This document shows, one piece after another, positions 1-64,000 of a stretch of 64,000 nt of DNA. Every line of letters starts with the position of its first letter. Positions within the stretch are counted from its first letter, which is position 1. The DNA comes from Candidatus Saccharimonadota bacterium (GTDB taxonomy: Bacteria > Patescibacteriota > Saccharimonadia > Saccharimonadales > UBA4665). The stretch lies in assembly GCA_028286345.1 (NCBI GenBank), contig JAQBRT010000001.1, positions 310,001-374,000 on the forward strand, given 5' to 3'. Below the pieces are notes generated by a model. It made no database searches. It was not told the DNA's origin and saw only the letters and a program-made list of their open reading frames with translations. The translations under genes and the position numbers were made by a program.

Positions 1-278
1 GTTTTTGTAAGAAAGGCGGCCAATGGGGTATCAATCTGGCCAGTCTCTACAACAATTTCAGGGGCCAGGTACATTTTGTAGTAAGAAACGCCAGCAATAA
101 AAAACAAAAGTTGGAGGGCACGGTCGAGGGCTTGAGGGTCATAATCCACAAAAGGGAAGTCAAAATGGTAGGTTTCGGTAAAATTCAGGGCTTCGTCATA
201 ACCGTAGTTAAAGCTTAATAACCCCGTTGCGGGATCAAAATCATACTGCTTGAAGCGAAAAGTAGCGTAATCACTCAT
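1..278 (-). CDS. murL: MurL-like UDP-MurNAc-L-Ala-L-Glu epimerase, partial (N-terminal 92 residues)
   Basis: The reading frame starts at 278 on the minus strand and leaves the window at base 1. The visible part has the look of MurL, the epimerase that converts the terminal L-Glu of UDP-MurNAc-L-Ala-L-Glu to D-Glu: an FRFKQYDFDPATG opening and an AGVSYYKMYLAPEI segment near residue 65-80. Its ATG overlaps the murD stop as ATGA, so the two are translationally coupled. MurL normally works with an L-Glu-adding MurD2, which fits this pairing. The catalytic C-terminal part is outside the window, so the call rests on the N-terminus and on context. Confidence 0.6.
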   Translation of the reverse strand, partial: MSDYATFRFKQYDFDPATGLLSFNYGYDEALNFTETYHFDFPFVDYDPQALDRALQLLFFIAGVSYYKMYLAPEIVVETGQIDTPLAAFLTK

Positions 279-54000: not shown

Positions 54001-54870
54001 ATGACGCGTCGCCTATTTGCTTTGTCCCTACTTGCCCTGGTACTTGTACCTGGCTTATCGGTGCCTGCGTTTGCAGCTTCAAAAACTCCGGCCGCTACCC
54101 CAAAAGAAGATATTAGCCAAGCTATTACGACGAGCTATAGCGGTGATAGTTCCATCCAGGTGGGCATTATTGTTAAGTTGAAAGATAAAACCGTTGGAAC
54201 GGTTGAGCCACTCCAAGAGGCTGATGCAGAAAAGATGCTTGGCGTAGTCGTGGCCCCTGACGCTGCTGCCGTTACGCTTACTCCAGAAACTGGTAACAAA
54301 CAGCAGATATTTGTTGCCACATCGGGCCGTTATGACGTACTGGTTTCCAACCAGAATGGCATCATTAACCCTGGTGACTTGGTGACAATCTCGGCGGTTA
54401 CCGGTATTGGTATGAAAGCTGATGAAAACCAGGCACAGACACTCGGGAAAGCGGTCAGTGGCTTTACCGGCACCCAGAACGTGATTAGCAAAGTCACGCT
54501 TAAAGACAGCCTTGGCCACCAGACCACGGCCGCTATTGGCCGCATTACTATCGACATCAGCATTATGCACAACCCGTTGCAGCAAAAGGCGACTGACTTT
54601 TTGCCAGCTTTCTTAGCACATGCGGCTACCACGGTGGCCTCAAAACGAGTTAGCGCTGCCCGCGTTTACTTGGGTTTGGCTATCCTAATGGTAAGTGGTT
54701 TTGTGACGGCCAATATTGTCTATAGCGGCGTGCGCAGCGGTATGATCGCAGTCGGCCGTAACCCGTTGTCCAAAAAGTCGATTATTAAAAGCCTTTTTCA
54801 GGCAATTGCCGGCGGTTTAATTGTTTTCATTGCCGGGATTTTTGCAGTATACTTAATTCTAAAGCTTTAG
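54001..54870 (+). CDS. Secreted domain fused to an ATP-synthase-c-like hairpin without carboxylate
   Basis: 289 residues. A signal peptide (about 1-26, ending PAFAAS), an external beta-rich domain (about 35-205; IQVGIIVKLKDKTVGTVEPL, LGVVVAP, NPGDLVTISAVTGIGMKAD), then two membrane helices (about 222-246 and 260-286). The loop between them is SGMIAVGRNPLSKKS, matching the polar loop of F-type c subunits (R-Q/N-P). The second helix, FQAIAGGLIVFIAGIFAVYLIL, has no Asp or Glu where c subunits carry the ion-binding carboxylate (about 18 residues after the Pro); neither has the first. It occupies the c-subunit place in an atp-like operon. Ring formation is inferred. Confidence 0.75.
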   Translation: MTRRLFALSLLALVLVPGLSVPAFAASKTPAATPKEDISQAITTSYSGDSSIQVGIIVKLKDKTVGTVEPLQEADAEKMLGVVVAPDAAAVTLTPETGNKQQIFVATSGRYDVLVSNQNGIINPGDLVTISAVTGIGMKADENQAQTLGKAVSGFTGTQNVISKVTLKDSLGHQTTAAIGRITIDISIMHNPLQQKATDFLPAFLAHAATTVASKRVSAARVYLGLAILMVSGFVTANIVYSGVRSGMIAVGRNPLSKKSIIKSLFQAIAGGLIVFIAGIFAVYLILKL

Positions 54871-54882
54871 CGCTTTGAGCAA

Positions 54883-54904
54883 GCTAACAGTAACCCCTGT
54901 TAGC
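54883..54904 (+). promoter_or_regulatory. Intergenic hairpin after the c-like gene
   Basis: GCTAACAG/CTGTTAGC with a six-base loop and no T-tract. It could stabilise the upstream mRNA or cause partial termination, which would raise the c-like protein over the other subunits. Confidence 0.4.
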
Positions 54905-54951: not shown

Positions 54952-55572
54952 ATGACAATTTGGTGGTTAGTGCTAATCCTGGCATTTCTGGCTGCTGCCT
55001 TTGGTGGCTTTATTTGGATTATTTTGCGCCTTGGTGGCGGCTCCGGAAAGCCAAAATCAGAGATTGAAACCATGGAAGGCGCTGTTAAGAACGACGTCGA
55101 ACATATTTTTAATGAGGACTTCCGTGAAGAACTGCGTAACCGCGGCCGCTTGCACTTTGAAAAAATCATTGGCGAGAACGCCATGTTCCTACAGCAGGAC
55201 CTCCGCCTAACTACTTCACAGCTCAACGAGTACATGAAAACGGAGATTACCTCCAAGCTCCGTGAGGAGTTTGAGAAGTATGAACAGTCAATTATGGACG
55301 CCAAGCAATTGGCCGTTGAATCCATCCAGAAGACTAATGCTGCCATTGATGAACAGCGTGAAATCCTGGGCCAGGAAGTCCAAAAAGAGATTATGGCCGA
55401 GAAGAAGCAACTGGTTCAGCGTTTTGAACAGAATATGACCGACATTATCAACCACTACGTACTGGCTGCAATTGGTAACCAGATTGACTTGAACGATCAG
55501 CTTGAGTATATCTTGGCCGACCTGGAAGCAAATAAGCAGGCAATTCTCGAGGATATTGCCCATGGCGCCTAA
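54952..55572 (+). CDS. atpF: F-type ATPase b-like peripheral stalk subunit
   Basis: 206 residues. One N-terminal membrane helix (about 3-25) and then almost entirely charged helix (about 40-200) with heptad-like spacing, the layout of subunit b. A Gly-rich GGGSGKPKSE linker follows the membrane helix. It would tie the F1 head to the membrane module. Longer than the usual b (about 160), with an extended C-terminal helix. It overlaps the delta-like gene by 11 bp. Confidence 0.8.
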   Translation: MTIWWLVLILAFLAAAFGGFIWIILRLGGGSGKPKSEIETMEGAVKNDVEHIFNEDFREELRNRGRLHFEKIIGENAMFLQQDLRLTTSQLNEYMKTEITSKLREEFEKYEQSIMDAKQLAVESIQKTNAAIDEQREILGQEVQKEIMAEKKQLVQRFEQNMTDIINHYVLAAIGNQIDLNDQLEYILADLEANKQAILEDIAHGA

Positions 55573-56128
55573 AACAGCAGCTACCGCACCAGCGTTTAGC
55601 CTGCCACTCAGCGTTGTTGGGCCGGTTGATTTAGGCCGTATGATCCGTGAGCTCGAAGCGCTCGATAACGAACTCTTGCAGCAGGAATTACGTAAGGACC
55701 AACAGGTTAAACTGCCTAAAACCTCACACCTGCTCGATCAGACCATCGAGCTCAACAAATACGACCTCCTCAAAGAGGCCGACCGTAAGGAGTTAAAGCA
55801 GCAGCTGGCTCATCTGCACGATAGCGCACCAACACTGCATATTAGCTTTAGTGCCGACCCATCACCGCTGTTTATTGAGAAAATAATGGCCTGGCTCCGC
55901 AAAGAAATCAGCCCGCAACTACTACTGACCATTGGCGAACAGCCAAACATTGGTGCCGGCTGTGTCGTCCGTACCACAAATAAATATTTTGACTTTAGCC
56001 TCCGTGACCACTTTATGAAACAAAAAGTACTGCTCATGGAGAGCCTAAGCGGAGTAACGCGGCCCGCGCCTGTTGCAGCGCCAGTAGCACCACCAGCCGC
56101 TGCTGTTCATCAGAAAGTCCAGGCATGA
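55562..56128 (+). CDS. atpH: F-type ATPase delta-like subunit
   Basis: 188 residues. N-terminal helices (about 15-75), a middle region, then [35 protein letters not shown], which matches the C-terminal end of delta (GGxxxRxGDxxxDxSxRxxL). The Ala/Pro tail after residue 165 is extra. Delta joins the top of F1 to subunit b. Its N-terminal domain is shorter and less recognisable than usual. Overlaps alpha by ATGA. Confidence 0.78.
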
Positions 56129-57677
56129 ACTCGGGCAACCAGCATTTTGATAAGCTAGTCGCAGCCGGTAACCCTGTCGGTGAAGTTATTGCTGTGGATA
56201 AGTTCTTGGTTAAAGCCCATGGCTTACAACCCTGTGCTGTCCACGCACTGATTATGTTTGAAGATGGTTCAAAAGGCTTTGTGCACCAAGTTCACCCGGA
56301 CCACGTTGTTGTCCTGCACCTGGGTTCTGAAACATTGCGTGTTGGCGTGATAGCGGTTGTCCAGCACCAGGAACTCGTCTGTAAGGTGGGCAAGGACTAC
56401 ATTGGCCGGGTTATAACCGCAACTGGCGAACCACTCGATGGCAAGGGGCCGATTGCGGCCACTAAGACCTGGCCGGTGTTTAACGTTGCACCACCACTGT
56501 TTGAACGTAAACTAGTTGAAGACCAGGTGGAAAGCGGCATTACAGCTATCGACTCCCTTTTCCCAATCGTACGCGGCCAGCGTATGGCGCTGCTTGGCGA
56601 TAGTAAGTCTGGTAAAAGTACCATGGCTACCCAGCTGACTATCAACCAGAAGAATACTGACCAGATTGTGGTGTTCTGCCTGATTGCTAAGCGTCGTGCT
56701 GATGTTGATACCTTGTTGAGCCGCCTCCGCGAAAACGGTGGCCTCGATAAAGCCATCATCGTGGTGTCCACCATGTTTGAATCGCTGATTATGAGCTACC
56801 TGGCGCCATATGTAGCCTGTTCGATGGCCGAATACCTCTGGCAGGAACAAGACCAGGATACGATTATTATTTATGACGACCTTACCTCCCATGCCCATGC
56901 CTACCGTGAAGTTGCACTACTGTCGGGCGTGAGCCCGGGCCGTGACTCCTACCCTGGTGACATGTTCTACGCCCACTCCAGCCTGCTGGAGCGCGCTGGC
57001 CGCCTGGAGCGCAATGGCCGCTGTTTGACGTGCGTGCCAATGGTTCACGCCGCTAACGGTGACATTACTGCCTACCTGCCAACCAACATCATGTCCATTA
57101 CTGATGGGCAGTGGATACTAGACATGGAGATTTTCCGCAATGGTATCCGCCCCGCACTTAACATCGGTCTGTCCGTAACCCGTGCCGGTGGCGTTGGCCA
57201 CAACAAACGCCAAAAGAATATTGCGGCGACCATACTCAAGACGCTTGCCGACTACCGCCAGGCGGAAGAGTTCTCGCACTTTGGTTCCGAACTGGCCCTG
57301 GAAGCAAAACGCGCCCTGGTTACCGGTAAGCGTATTTTTGAAGTGATTACCCAAAGCCCGACCGACACTTACTCGTTGGTATCCCAACAGCTAATGCTCG
57401 ACATTGTGCTTAACATGGAAGATGGCGTTGATATTGATATCAATGCCTTAAAATTGCATGTTACTGAATTTGCAGCCCAAGTGACCAGCGAGGAACAATT
57501 CGATAGCGTCCGGGACCAGCTGAAAGCTAAGTGCATTATCGAGATTAAGGGCGCCGAATCAGCTAAGCCGGCAGAGCCAGCCGCACCCCCTGAGGCTGCG
57601 CCTGATGAAAAACCAGAAGATAAGAAAGAAAAGAAAGACGACAAGCACAAGAAGAAAGAACCGGCGGAGGCAAAAGC

Positions 57678-57681
<4 letters not shown>
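56125..57681 (+). CDS. atpA: F1-type ATPase alpha subunit
   Basis: 518 residues. Beta-barrel start, P-loop GDSKSGKST (canonical GDRQTGKT), Walker B region [31 protein letters not shown], and the Arg-finger motif [11 protein letters not shown]. It carries a charged, Pro/Lys/Glu-rich tail of about 40 residues beyond the normal end. The non-catalytic nucleotide site and Arg finger are intact, so the head should be a working ATPase. Overlaps both neighbours by ATGA/GTGA. Confidence 0.93.
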
Positions 57682-60208
<2,527 letters not shown>

Positions 60209-60212
<4 letters not shown>

Positions 60213-61207: not shown

Positions 61208-61301
61208 CTCTTAAATCGTTTACGGTTATCCTTACCATAATACCAGATATAAGCTCAAACGGATTGCCTTTTTAGCAAAATTGCAGCACTATATAGACAC
61301 C

Positions 61302-62039
61302 ATGTCCGTGTGGAAACAAACAGTAAAACTAACACTGTCGGTGCTGTTCATGCTCCTACTATTGCCGGCAGCTGTCTTTGCCGCCCAGTCCGCTTCAAGT
61401 AGCTACCAAGTGAATGAAGTGTTTTTTGGTAGTGGTGGCGAACTACAAGCCTGTTCAAGCAACTACTGTTCCAAGCAATCAGCCGGTGAAACCACAGTGG
61501 GTAATACTGCCAGTAGCAACTTTCAGGCCCAAGGCGGTTTTAATACTAACCGTGAACCGTACATTGAATTCACGGTCAGCAATACCAACATCGACCTTGG
61601 CGAATTAACAGCCACTACCACCAAGACGGCCACAGCCACCTTTACAGTTAAGTCATATTTAAGCCACGGCTATGAAGTAGTGAATGCTTCTGACCCGCCA
61701 ACCAATGGCAGTTATCAGATGCAGGCTATTTCGCCACCGGATGGGTCACTAGTTGGTACCGAACAGTTTGGTATTAACCTGGTAGCCAATACTAGTCCTA
61801 TCACGTACGGGGCCAACCCGGTTAAATTGCCTGACAGCAGCTTTGCGTTTGGTACAGTTAACAGTGATTATTCGGCACCTAACACCTATAAATATGCCAA
61901 AGGCGATGTGGTGGCTTATTCCACTGAGAGCAGTAGCGATACACAATTTACCGTTTCATACCTGTTCAATATTAGTCACGTTACCCCTGGTGGTGAGTAT
62001 TCGCTTCATCATGTTCTGGTAGCGACGGCAACTTATTAG
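61302..62039 (+). CDS. Secreted beta-rich surface protein
   Basis: 245 residues from ATG 61302, about 8 nt after a TATATA box. Signal peptide (about 1-30, ending VFAAQ), a Ser/Asn/Cys-containing start (ACSSNYCSKQ), then a beta domain with FTVSNTNIDLGELTATTTKTATATFTVKSYLSHGYEVVNAS, similar in feel to secreted DUF-type beta sandwiches of Saccharibacteria, and a terminal HHVLVATATY strand. No anchor. Confidence 0.75.
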   Translation: MSVWKQTVKLTLSVLFMLLLLPAAVFAAQSASSSYQVNEVFFGSGGELQACSSNYCSKQSAGETTVGNTASSNFQAQGGFNTNREPYIEFTVSNTNIDLGELTATTTKTATATFTVKSYLSHGYEVVNASDPPTNGSYQMQAISPPDGSLVGTEQFGINLVANTSPITYGANPVKLPDSSFAFGTVNSDYSAPNTYKYAKGDVVAYSTESSSDTQFTVSYLFNISHVTPGGEYSLHHVLVATATY

Positions 62040-62083: not shown

Positions 62084-62112
62084 TTGCAGTCTAACCATGA
62101 GCATGTTACGAT
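62084..62112 (+). promoter_or_regulatory. Promoter that decides the start of the next gene
   Basis: TTGCAG at 62084-62089, 17-nt spacer, TACGAT at 62107-62112. Transcription would begin near 62119, downstream of the ATG at 62097, so the ATG at 62145 is the start. Confidence 0.6.
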
Positions 62113-62144
62113 TTACTCGGAAGTTACAAAAACAAAATTCAACG

Positions 62145-63521
62145 ATGAAATACCTACCAATTAAACGATATAGCTATGCGATTACCGCGACACTCTTGTT
62201 GCTGAGTGTCTTTTTCCCGCTTTTTAAGCCTGTACACGCTGGCGCATCCCAGTTAACCTCCCGTCGTATTACGATGAGTGACTCTGGTGCAAGTGGCCAA
62301 GGTATATCGGGTGTTGGTGGTGGTGCTAGCGTGCAATACCAAGTTGCCTTTACCTTAACGACCAATGTTGACGCCCTGGTCATCGACTTTTGTGCCAACA
62401 CGCCAATCATTGGCGACAACTGTAACGCTACCAGTGGTAGCATGAGCCTAACTAGCTTTACGGCTGCAAGTGCTGCCCTGACAACCGCACCAAACGATGC
62501 CGGCCAAATCCGTAACTGGACATCTGTAACAGCCAGCCAATACCGAATCACCCTTGCTAAAGGTACGGGCGCCCAAGCAACTAGTGCCAGCCAGGTCTTT
62601 ACCATCTCTGGTATTACCAACCCAAGTACCCGGGGTTCATTCTATGCCCGTATTTACACATATACAGCTGCTAACGCTGCTAGTTACTCCAGCCCAACTT
62701 CGCTCGGAACCTATAGTGACTACGGCGGTATAGCCCTAGCAATCAACCAGATTATTCGTATCACGGCCCGAGTCCAGGAAACACTGTCATTCTGTGTCAC
62801 CGGTTTGAACCCAAGCCTATGGACAACCAAAGACTGTACTGACGCCACCGCCACAGCTACGGCACCGTCCCTTGTGCTAGGGCATGGTACGCCAACGGCG
62901 ACGTTGGATGCCAGTCAGGACGACTCCGGAACAGTGTTCTCGCAGTTATCGACAAATGCTTCTAGTGGCGCCGCGATTGCCATGCGCAACAATAATAATG
63001 CCAACTCTTGTACTAACGGTGGCTTGAGTGCCGACTTTGGCCAGACCTGTGCTATTCCTGGTGTTGGTTCGACTGCTGCGCTGATCGTCCCTGGTATTGC
63101 TAACTTTGGCCTCTACGTATGGAACAGTGAAGCTGCTGATGCCAGCAGCGTCGGTACCGTTGCGCCAGCCGCACTCTATCGCACCACTGCGCACACGACC
63201 TTTACAACGACTGCCGGTGCCAGCCTTACAGCCTTCACCTCAGCCGCCAGTGCTTCTTCGGGTTCAAACAACTCAGGTGATATTTTCCCAGATGCCACTA
63301 ATGTATTTTATGGCATGGATGCCTCAACCGGTGGCGTAACCCCATCAGCTGTCTCACCATACAACAACGTCCTGACGACCTTTGGTCACGTCGTTGCCGC
63401 TTGTACCGCCCCAGTCTATAAGATCAATAATGCCTACACCTTTACGGCTACAGCCGCACTAACTACGCCAGCCGGTATCTATACCGCAAACCTCGACCTA
63501 ATTGCCACCGGTACGTTCTAA
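62145..63521 (+). CDS. Secreted surface protein (paralog of the next gene)
   Basis: 458 residues from ATG 62145. Signal peptide (about 1-33, VFFPLFKPVHAG), then SRRITMSDSGASGQG...YQVAFTLTTNVDALVIDFCANTP with paired Cys, and a Ser/Ala/Thr/Asn-rich beta region to the end, closing with a YTANLDLIATGTF strand. No membrane anchor or sorting motif, so it is released or held by other proteins. The N-terminal pattern recurs in the gene that follows. Confidence 0.78.
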   Translation: MKYLPIKRYSYAITATLLLLSVFFPLFKPVHAGASQLTSRRITMSDSGASGQGISGVGGGASVQYQVAFTLTTNVDALVIDFCANTPIIGDNCNATSGSMSLTSFTAASAALTTAPNDAGQIRNWTSVTASQYRITLAKGTGAQATSASQVFTISGITNPSTRGSFYARIYTYTAANAASYSSPTSLGTYSDYGGIALAINQIIRITARVQETLSFCVTGLNPSLWTTKDCTDATATATAPSLVLGHGTPTATLDASQDDSGTVFSQLSTNASSGAAIAMRNNNNANSCTNGGLSADFGQTCAIPGVGSTAALIVPGIANFGLYVWNSEAADASSVGTVAPAALYRTTAHTTFTTTAGASLTAFTSAASASSGSNNSGDIFPDATNVFYGMDASTGGVTPSAVSPYNNVLTTFGHVVAACTAPVYKINNAYTFTATAALTTPAGIYTANLDLIATGTF

Positions 63522-63533
63522 GGCCTCCCGTCC

Positions 63534-64000
63534 ATGAAGTGGGTGACGCGCCACACTCAGCGGCCAACGCCAGCTATGCTGCTTGGTTGCGGGCTAGTGA
63601 TTGTAGGGTTAGTGCTCAACCTGCTTTTTGGCTCTGTCTCGGGCGCTCAGCTCGGCAACCGTAGCCTAACGCTCAGTCATAACCAGGCCTCGGCCCAATC
63701 GGTTTACCGGGCTGGCTTTACTACTGTCAGTAATGGTCTGCTGGGATCTGTTACCTTTGAGTTCTGCTCAAATGACCCATTCCCCGAAGACCCCTGTACG
63801 GCACCAACTGGCTTAGACGTAAGTGCTGTAACTTTGACTGACCAGACGGGTGCCACAGGCTTTACCATCGGCGGCGGCACAGATGCCAATCACATTATGT
63901 TAACGCGAGGCCAGCAAAATTTGGTACCAACCCCAGTAGTCTTTACGTTTGATGGCGCAGTTAACCCATCATCTCCAGGCTCATATTTTATGCGTATTCA
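63534..64000 (+). CDS. Secreted surface protein, partial (continues beyond the window)
   Basis: At least 155 residues, starting 12 bp after the previous stop and cut by the window edge. Signal-anchor helix (about 16-35), then RSLTLSHNQASAQSVYRAGFTT...GSVTFEFCSNDPFPEDPC and a LTDQTGATGFTIGG stretch. The R-x-T-x-S start, the F-x-F-C-x-N-x-P core and paired Cys match the preceding gene, so the two are tandem paralogs. Confidence 0.75.
   Translation, partial: MKWVTRHTQRPTPAMLLGCGLVIVGLVLNLLFGSVSGAQLGNRSLTLSHNQASAQSVYRAGFTTVSNGLLGSVTFEFCSNDPFPEDPCTAPTGLDVSAVTLTDQTGATGFTIGGGTDANHIMLTRGQQNLVPTPVVFTFDGAVNPSSPGSYFMRI

Follow-up and report, generated by a model that had tools for sequence, protein, structure and literature searches.

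A gene in the window, the 64,000-nucleotide stretch of a Candidatus Saccharimonadota genome that was analysed, was found to encode a relative of ATP synthase subunit c that carries a signal peptide and a large outer domain and has lost the ion-binding acid. The gene heads an operon for an F1-like ATPase with conserved catalytic residues, and the operon adjoins genes of the Pam pilus system. On balance, we lean towards the reading that the operon encodes a non-respiratory F1-type motor, in which the c-like protein would be the rotor-ring subunit and the resulting crown of outer domains would be the base for a surface apparatus formed by the Pam proteins and the neighbouring L protein.

Overall architecture of the c-like protein

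The c-like subunit (54001..54870, forward strand) is a 289-residue protein with an ATG start. The preliminary description had proposed that a signal peptide, a beta-rich ectodomain and a c-like hairpin are joined in this one chain, and both the translation of the open reading frame (ORF) and a model generated with AlphaFold2 confirmed this arrangement. Reading of the translation placed the signal peptide at residues 1-25 (54001..54075, forward strand), with an RR n-region, a hydrophobic core and a cleavage-like AFA/AS site at residues 23-26. The AlphaFold2 model, which was based on 76 homologues and showed a mean pLDDT of 89.5, contained twelve β-strands within residues 42-190 and two long helices (residues 219-253 and 255-288) that were joined at a conserved GRNP loop. 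The large domain had been expected outside the membrane, and the sequence signals point the same way: a signal peptide is followed by a c-type hairpin, which should have its GRNP/KK loop on the cytoplasmic side.

Matches to the c-like family at E ≤ 0.001 were present in 73 of the 98 nearest genomes, including a few ectodomain-only matches. The family was also matched in 107 of 244 genomes of the class and 142 of 379 genomes of the phylum, both counts including ectodomain-only matches in large ORFs, and full-length c-like proteins occurred outside the class at loci L075-L094. Of the 80 relatives located on named contigs, most were labelled Candidatus Saccharibacteria, and the rest were mainly labelled 'bacterium' or 'Patescibacteria group'. 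One contig with the whole operon (L167) was labelled Chlamydiae bacterium; it is probably a misbinned Saccharibacteria contig, the other possibility being a transfer. The c-like protein had no tblastn match in 50,697 phage records, no phmmer match in PDB sequences and no match in PHROGs (as P0001). A VirB2/TrbC pilin identity was rejected, as the Pfam match had an E-value of 0.19 and was confined to the region of the signal peptide.

Kinship of the hairpin with ATP synthase subunit c

The transmembrane hairpin of the c-like protein (residues 219-288; 54655..54864, forward strand) is a relative of ATP synthase subunit c in both sequence and fold. Superposition of the AlphaFold2 hairpin onto the Chloroflexus c subunit (9itt_I) revealed an rmsd of 1.1 Å over 69 of 69 residues and a Z-score of 11.1; hairpin Z-scores alone are no proof of kinship, since seryl-tRNA synthetase coiled coils reach a Z-score of 8.9 at 3.4 Å. 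In hhalign, a profile of the hairpin built from 65 c-like sequences matched a profile of 21 canonical c sequences with a probability of 91.6 and a P-value of 8e-7, while the reversed canonical c used as a control gave a probability of 0.1. When the canonical c of the same genome was used as a single query against 1,121 ORFs, it retrieved a distant c-like protein (L091) with an E-value of 5.6e-4. Additionally, the NCBIfam c-subunit model matched 8 of 76 relatives (best 1.5e-5), and no other family matched more members. Pfam PF00137 did not report the c-like protein, and its sole match in this genome was the canonical c.

The GRNP polar loop (residues 252-255; 54754..54765, forward strand) was identical to that of the canonical c. 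All 142 c-like sequences contained an RxP loop, which was RNP in 141 of them and RQP in the remaining one; RNP was also found in all 21 canonical c sequences. The first transmembrane helix of the c-like protein lacked the canonical GxGxGxG and had instead a stripe of small residues with 7/4 spacing. The c-like protein thus resembles F-type subunit c (PF00137 / NCBIfam PRK07159) in hairpin length, in the GRNP loop shared with the canonical c of its own genome, in superposition and in profile kinship. It differs in possessing an N-terminal signal peptide and an outer domain of about 150 residues, in lacking the ion-binding carboxylate and GxGxGxG, and in falling below the Pfam threshold. The ATP synthase subunit c family forms rings of 8-17 copies, and the earlier comparison of the hairpin with this ring-forming subunit was upheld by the sequence profiles together with the structural fit.

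Structural similarity of the ectodomain to phage proteins

The ectodomain comprises residues 41-190 (54121..54570, forward strand), and in the model its fold resembles that of phage cement and appendage domains. The C-terminal fragment of phi29 gp12 (3gqh) matched with a Z-score of 12.9 and an rmsd of 2.6 over 114 aligned residues, and the HFTV1 chain 8qsy_JJ matched with a Z-score of 12.0; several capsid cement proteins and the phi29 head-fibre base were also matched. In a Foldseek search, 8hdt_G (E 3e-5) was the sole ectodomain match below 0.001, and among the 76 relatives, Pfam identified the minor capsid family XM1_gp53 (XM1 gp53) in seven and Phage_cement in one. A carbohydrate-binding-like fold had been named beforehand among the supportive outcomes for the ectodomain; this idea was abandoned, as the structure search returned phage cement and appendage folds.

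The fold of residues 41-190 is shared with domains of phi29 gp12 (C-terminal), HFTV1, Pam3, E217 and XM1. Unlike these phage domains, the c-like protein is a membrane-tethered cellular protein, and the ectodomain also occurs in giant ORFs of the same phylum. It was observed alone inside very large ORFs of up to about 4,400 residues across the phylum (G063:C4:8765-9091, G007:C3:94816-95016, G519:C7:38018-38410 and others), which suggests that it is a mobile surface module.

Organisation of the F1-like operon

The c-like gene is the first of seven genes on the forward strand in the order c-b-delta-alpha-gamma-beta-epsilon. The b-like subunit (54952..55572) contains one N-terminal transmembrane helix and a long helical stalk and showed a weak match to NCBIfam alt_F1F0 b (E 0.0075), and the delta-like subunit (55562..56128, starting at an ATG within the listed ORF 55502-56128) showed a weak match to NCBIfam delta (E 0.0066); both occupy conserved positions. 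They are followed by the alpha-like subunit (56125..57681), the gamma-like subunit (57678..58544; PF00231, E 8.8e-30), the beta-like catalytic subunit (58546..59850) and the epsilon-like subunit (59847..60212). The latter has 121 residues, with a Pfam match at residues 43-119, and consists of an N-terminal extension of about 42 residues and the beta-sandwich only, without the C-terminal inhibitory helices. The location of the gamma gene in the same operon agrees with the link between gamma and the c-like protein that had been drawn at the outset.

All 112 aligned beta sequences retained the P-loop and the catalytic Glu and Arg, and all 120 alpha sequences retained their P-loop K and the Arg finger; some genomes, including that of the window, were counted twice in these sets. 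Judged by these residues, the F1 part looks active and ATP-hydrolysing. Sequence identities of beta ranged from 45 to 100% among the F1-like proteins and from 40 to 44% between these and canonical beta, which indicates that the F1-like and canonical groups are separate.

The c-b junction was the only one with a clear gap, which was 81 nt here and had a median of 34 nt over 70 junctions. The remaining junctions overlapped or were at most 2 nt apart at the median, and in the window b through epsilon either overlap one another or are nearly contiguous. The c-b gap is a hint regarding the stoichiometry of c. In the window, this gap also contains a perfect inverted repeat of 8 bp around a 6-nt loop (54883-54904). 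This repeat was rejected as a control of c stoichiometry on grounds of conservation, since a perfect stem of at least 7 was found in only 1 of 52 gaps, compared with 0.6 expected from shuffles.

Loss of the ion path

In all 21 canonical c sequences, the ion-binding acid was located 16-18 residues past the loop proline (P+16..18). Only 2 of 142 c-like sequences contained an acid in this region, namely L201 and L202, each with an Asp at P+17; the protein encoded at 54001 contained none there. Small or aliphatic residues occupied this position in the other c-like sequences, and in 18 further sequences an acid was present elsewhere in the stretch of the second transmembrane helix, mostly nearer the cytoplasmic end.

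No homologue of subunit a was detected at E ≤ 1 among 2,621 ORFs of 140 loci and the end of the window. The genome, which is 0.9 Mb in size, also contains the full canonical F1Fo operon, subunits a and c included, at about C2:701-709 kb, and the subunit a family (PF00119) was matched once in the genome, within this canonical operon. With neither subunit a nor the ion-binding acid, the motor would be neither ion-driven nor ion-pumping, and an ordinary ATP synthase or ion pump was rejected as the identity of the operon because both are absent.

Neighbouring L protein and Pam pilus genes

The L protein (P0008; 60209..61207, reverse strand) is a conserved neighbour of the operon and contains a predicted disordered cytoplasmic tail, one transmembrane helix, a fibre-like stretch and a C-terminal lectin/tailspike-like beta domain. 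The best structural matches of the beta domain were tailspike C-termini and H-type lectins with Z-scores of up to 6.9, and Pfam H_lectin was matched with an E-value of 0.025; as these Z-scores are middling, the lectin-like reading of L is weak. L may be a membrane-anchored fibre that ends in a lectin- or tailspike-like tip, and it is conserved both beside the motor and in motor-free Pam clusters.

The following genes lie on the forward strand and encode the Pam pilus protein PamT (61281..62039; NF058579, E 3.6e-90, 301.6 bits against a cut-off of 240), a secreted, pilin-like member of the Pam cluster that matched Pam pilin C only at an E-value of 0.35 (62097..63521), and a Pam pilin subunit that begins at 63534 and runs through 64000 past the end of the window (L205:535-1599; NF058581, E 2.2e-44, 151.1 bits against a cut-off of 55). 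Beyond the window, a protein that reads as chaperone-like and PamR (NF058578, 391 bits against a cut-off of 300) were found. Other PamR-like and PamT-like genes were observed elsewhere in the genome (L205:9722-10777 and G000:C2:470032-470235), the PamR-like one directly before an FtsA/PilM-like gene. At another locus (L178:4879-6397), two ORFs that read like pieces of a LAGLIDADG homing endonuclease lie a few kb before a Pam cluster.

The c-like gene shares its clusters with the Pam pilus system of CPR (NCBIfam PamT, PamR and Pam pilin C) and is the first gene in several of them, although the c-like, L and F1 proteins match none of the NCBIfam Pam models. We found no paper on the Pam pilus in the open-access PMC literature.

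Co-occurrence of the c-like and F1-like genes

In total, 60 genomes of the class, each at least 90% complete, were surveyed, and F1-like beta was defined by at least 45% identity to the beta of the window. F1-like beta and the full-length c-like protein were each present in 34 genomes; 33 genomes had both, one had only the former, one had only the latter and 25 had neither. Canonical subunits a and c occurred together in 34 of the 60 genomes, 24 of which belonged to the 34 F1-like carriers. The other 10 carriers had neither subunit a nor canonical c, with no PF00119 or PF00137 match (G098, G103, G104, G113, G115, G118, G120, G122, G127 and G131).

On named contigs, F1 genes were located downstream of 50 of 57 c-like genes, in 45 cases in the exact order b-delta-alpha-gamma-beta; at least 6.5 kb of downstream sequence was required, which left out 22 c-like genes near contig ends. 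Five of the remaining seven ran straight into L, PamT, pilins and PamR without F1, and two were incompletely labelled. Among loci fetched by place, which share genomes with the named-contig set and from which six were left out as too short, F1 was downstream of 46 of 58 c-like genes. In the other 12, F1 was upstream (two), adjacent on the other strand (five), decaying (one) or not in view (four).

Several exceptions concerned one half of the system only. Genome G005, which is listed as 100% complete, contained an intact set of genes from b to epsilon (L240:6802-12028) with no c-like gene anywhere in the genome and no L or Pam genes after the set. In G137, a decaying copy (L242:3872-6535) retained the c-like gene, b, delta and a truncated alpha and had no gamma, beta or epsilon. 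The genome of the window also has a second c-like gene (L032), 28% identical to the first, which is followed by relatives of L and PamR without F1. G005 and the F1-free c-like genes indicate that the motor half and the c-like half are separable in evolution, and the c-like genes that head Pam clusters without F1 (the 5 of 57 named loci and L032) suggest that the protein may work without the motor.

Proposed mechanism and alternative explanations

In the reading that we favour, several copies of the c-like protein would form a membrane ring through the c-type hairpin, with gamma and epsilon docked to its GRNP loops on the cytoplasmic side. ATP would be hydrolysed by alpha3beta3, which the b/delta stalk would hold in place, and the energy would exert a torque on the ring, which carries the phage-cement-like domains as an outer crown, relative to the other parts of the complex; given the absence of subunit a and of the ion-binding acid, it would not be spent on pumping ions. 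The adjacent surface apparatus, made up of the Pam pilus proteins and the lectin-like L fibre, would be attached to the crown as its base, so that ATP hydrolysis may move, pull or release surface adhesins of an episymbiont. The ring, its copy number, its rotation and the coupling to Pam are the parts of this scheme that we infer. As b has one transmembrane helix and nothing known replaces subunit a, b might slip round the ring.

It is possible, though we regard it as unlikely, that the hairpin protein is instead a trimer or small oligomer whose number is set by the ectodomain, and that it anchors the Pam pilus in the membrane and is pushed by the F1-like ATPase via gamma. Several phage relatives of the ectodomain are presumably trimers, including its best structural relatives (the phi29 gp12 fragment, the phi29 head-fibre base and capsid cement), and such trimers need not fit a ring of ten, the approximate number expected from known c-rings. 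The absence of the canonical GxGxGxG and the c-like genes in Pam clusters without F1 are consistent with a trimeric anchor as well; however, the hairpin retains the length of c, the GRNP loop and the close fit to c, and its gene co-occurs with those for gamma and epsilon.

We consider it improbable that the F1-like complex is a type III export-type ATPase, with the c-like ring as a gate or chaperone platform that exports pilus or effector proteins. F1 and FliI/SctN ATPases are homologous, both appearing among the NCBIfam matches, and the pilus cluster adjoins the operon, but the Pam proteins P0009 and P0010 appear on reading to have signal peptides of their own and should therefore be exported by Sec. 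Moreover, gamma, epsilon, b and delta are all kept here, and export ATPases are not known to have these subunits as such.

There is similarly little to recommend a passive role, in which the c-like protein would be an anchor or brake in a static ring and ATP hydrolysis would only shift the conformation to release adhesins, comparable to the resetting proposed for MIB-MIP in mycoplasmas. The stalk genes b and delta are conserved and would be needless without torque, whereas the lack of a visible stator partner here and the requirement of the Mycoplasma Type 3 ATPase for the surface function of MIB-MIP, as stated in the sections consulted of PMC12994834, would suit such an anchor. Finally, it is very improbable that the operon encodes a second ATP synthase or ion pump of the ordinary kind, with its subunit a supplied by the canonical operon: canonical a and c do accompany F1-like genes in 24 of 34 genomes, but the other 10 have neither, and all but two of the 142 c-like sequences lack the ion-binding acid.

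Comparison with known non-respiratory F1 motors

The Type 2 and Type 3 F1-like (X0) ATPases of Mycoplasma are linked to surface systems (PMC3369863; PMC12994834; PMC11864180, in the parts consulted). Their four F1-like subunits occur without subunit a, as in the operon described here, but they have no b or delta, both of which are present in our operon. Additionally, a 12-TM protein is found in the Mycoplasma cluster, and reading of the ORFs between 54001 and 60212 revealed no such protein. Mycoplasma Protein 5 (MSC_0620 / MMCAP2_0577 / MMOB1650) is much larger than the c-like protein and, by the description in these papers, appears to have the same architecture; in the portions consulted, its authors saw no kinship with FO. 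No NCBIfam model of Protein 5 was among the matches of the 76 c-like relatives.

In Omnitrophota, the beta subunit of a 'symbiotic' non-respiratory F-type ATPase clusters with that of Ca. Saccharimonadia, and the ATPase adjoins pili and was proposed to have a role in attachment (Seymour et al. 2023, PMC10066038, as far as the consulted sections report). That ATPase lies beside type-4a pili, whereas the operon here lies beside Pam genes, and the account in these sections covers alpha and beta only, with no ring subunit.

The motor half is thus partly known already from Mycoplasma and Omnitrophota. The preliminary description had regarded a rotary motor with an external crown as new; this does not hold for the non-respiratory F1-like ATPase as such and stands for the ring subunit with an ectodomain, for which we found no description in the open-access PMC literature. 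Measured against that literature, the new element is the c-like subunit that carries the outer domain. A bolder proposal, which we put forward only tentatively and hold to be doubtful, is that the rotary ATPase turns the crown of identical outer domains and, along with it, a pilus or a fibre with a lectin tip at the cell surface of an episymbiont, and is an ATP-powered extracellular rotor derived from a c-ring that no longer handles ions. The combination of signal peptide, ectodomain and c-type hairpin may also account for the missing rotor in the gliding and MIB-MIP ATPases of Mycoplasma.

Biological implications

Rotary ATPases are textbook ion machines, and F1 motors that do other work are known from mycoplasmas and, by inference, from Omnitrophota. 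A c homologue without an ion site and with an outer domain offers a concrete and testable answer to the question of how the torque of a non-respiratory F1 crosses the membrane. As 10 of the 60 genomes of the class have F1 alpha and beta without a canonical FO, matches to atpA or atpD in them do not imply an ATP synthase, and surveys that count these genes may call those 10 genomes ATP synthase carriers. Our findings tie an unstudied motor to the surface pili of a large episymbiont group, in which the machinery for attachment is under genetic dissection. In many Saccharibacteria-type cells, a second F1 motor may turn or pull surface structures instead of making ATP.
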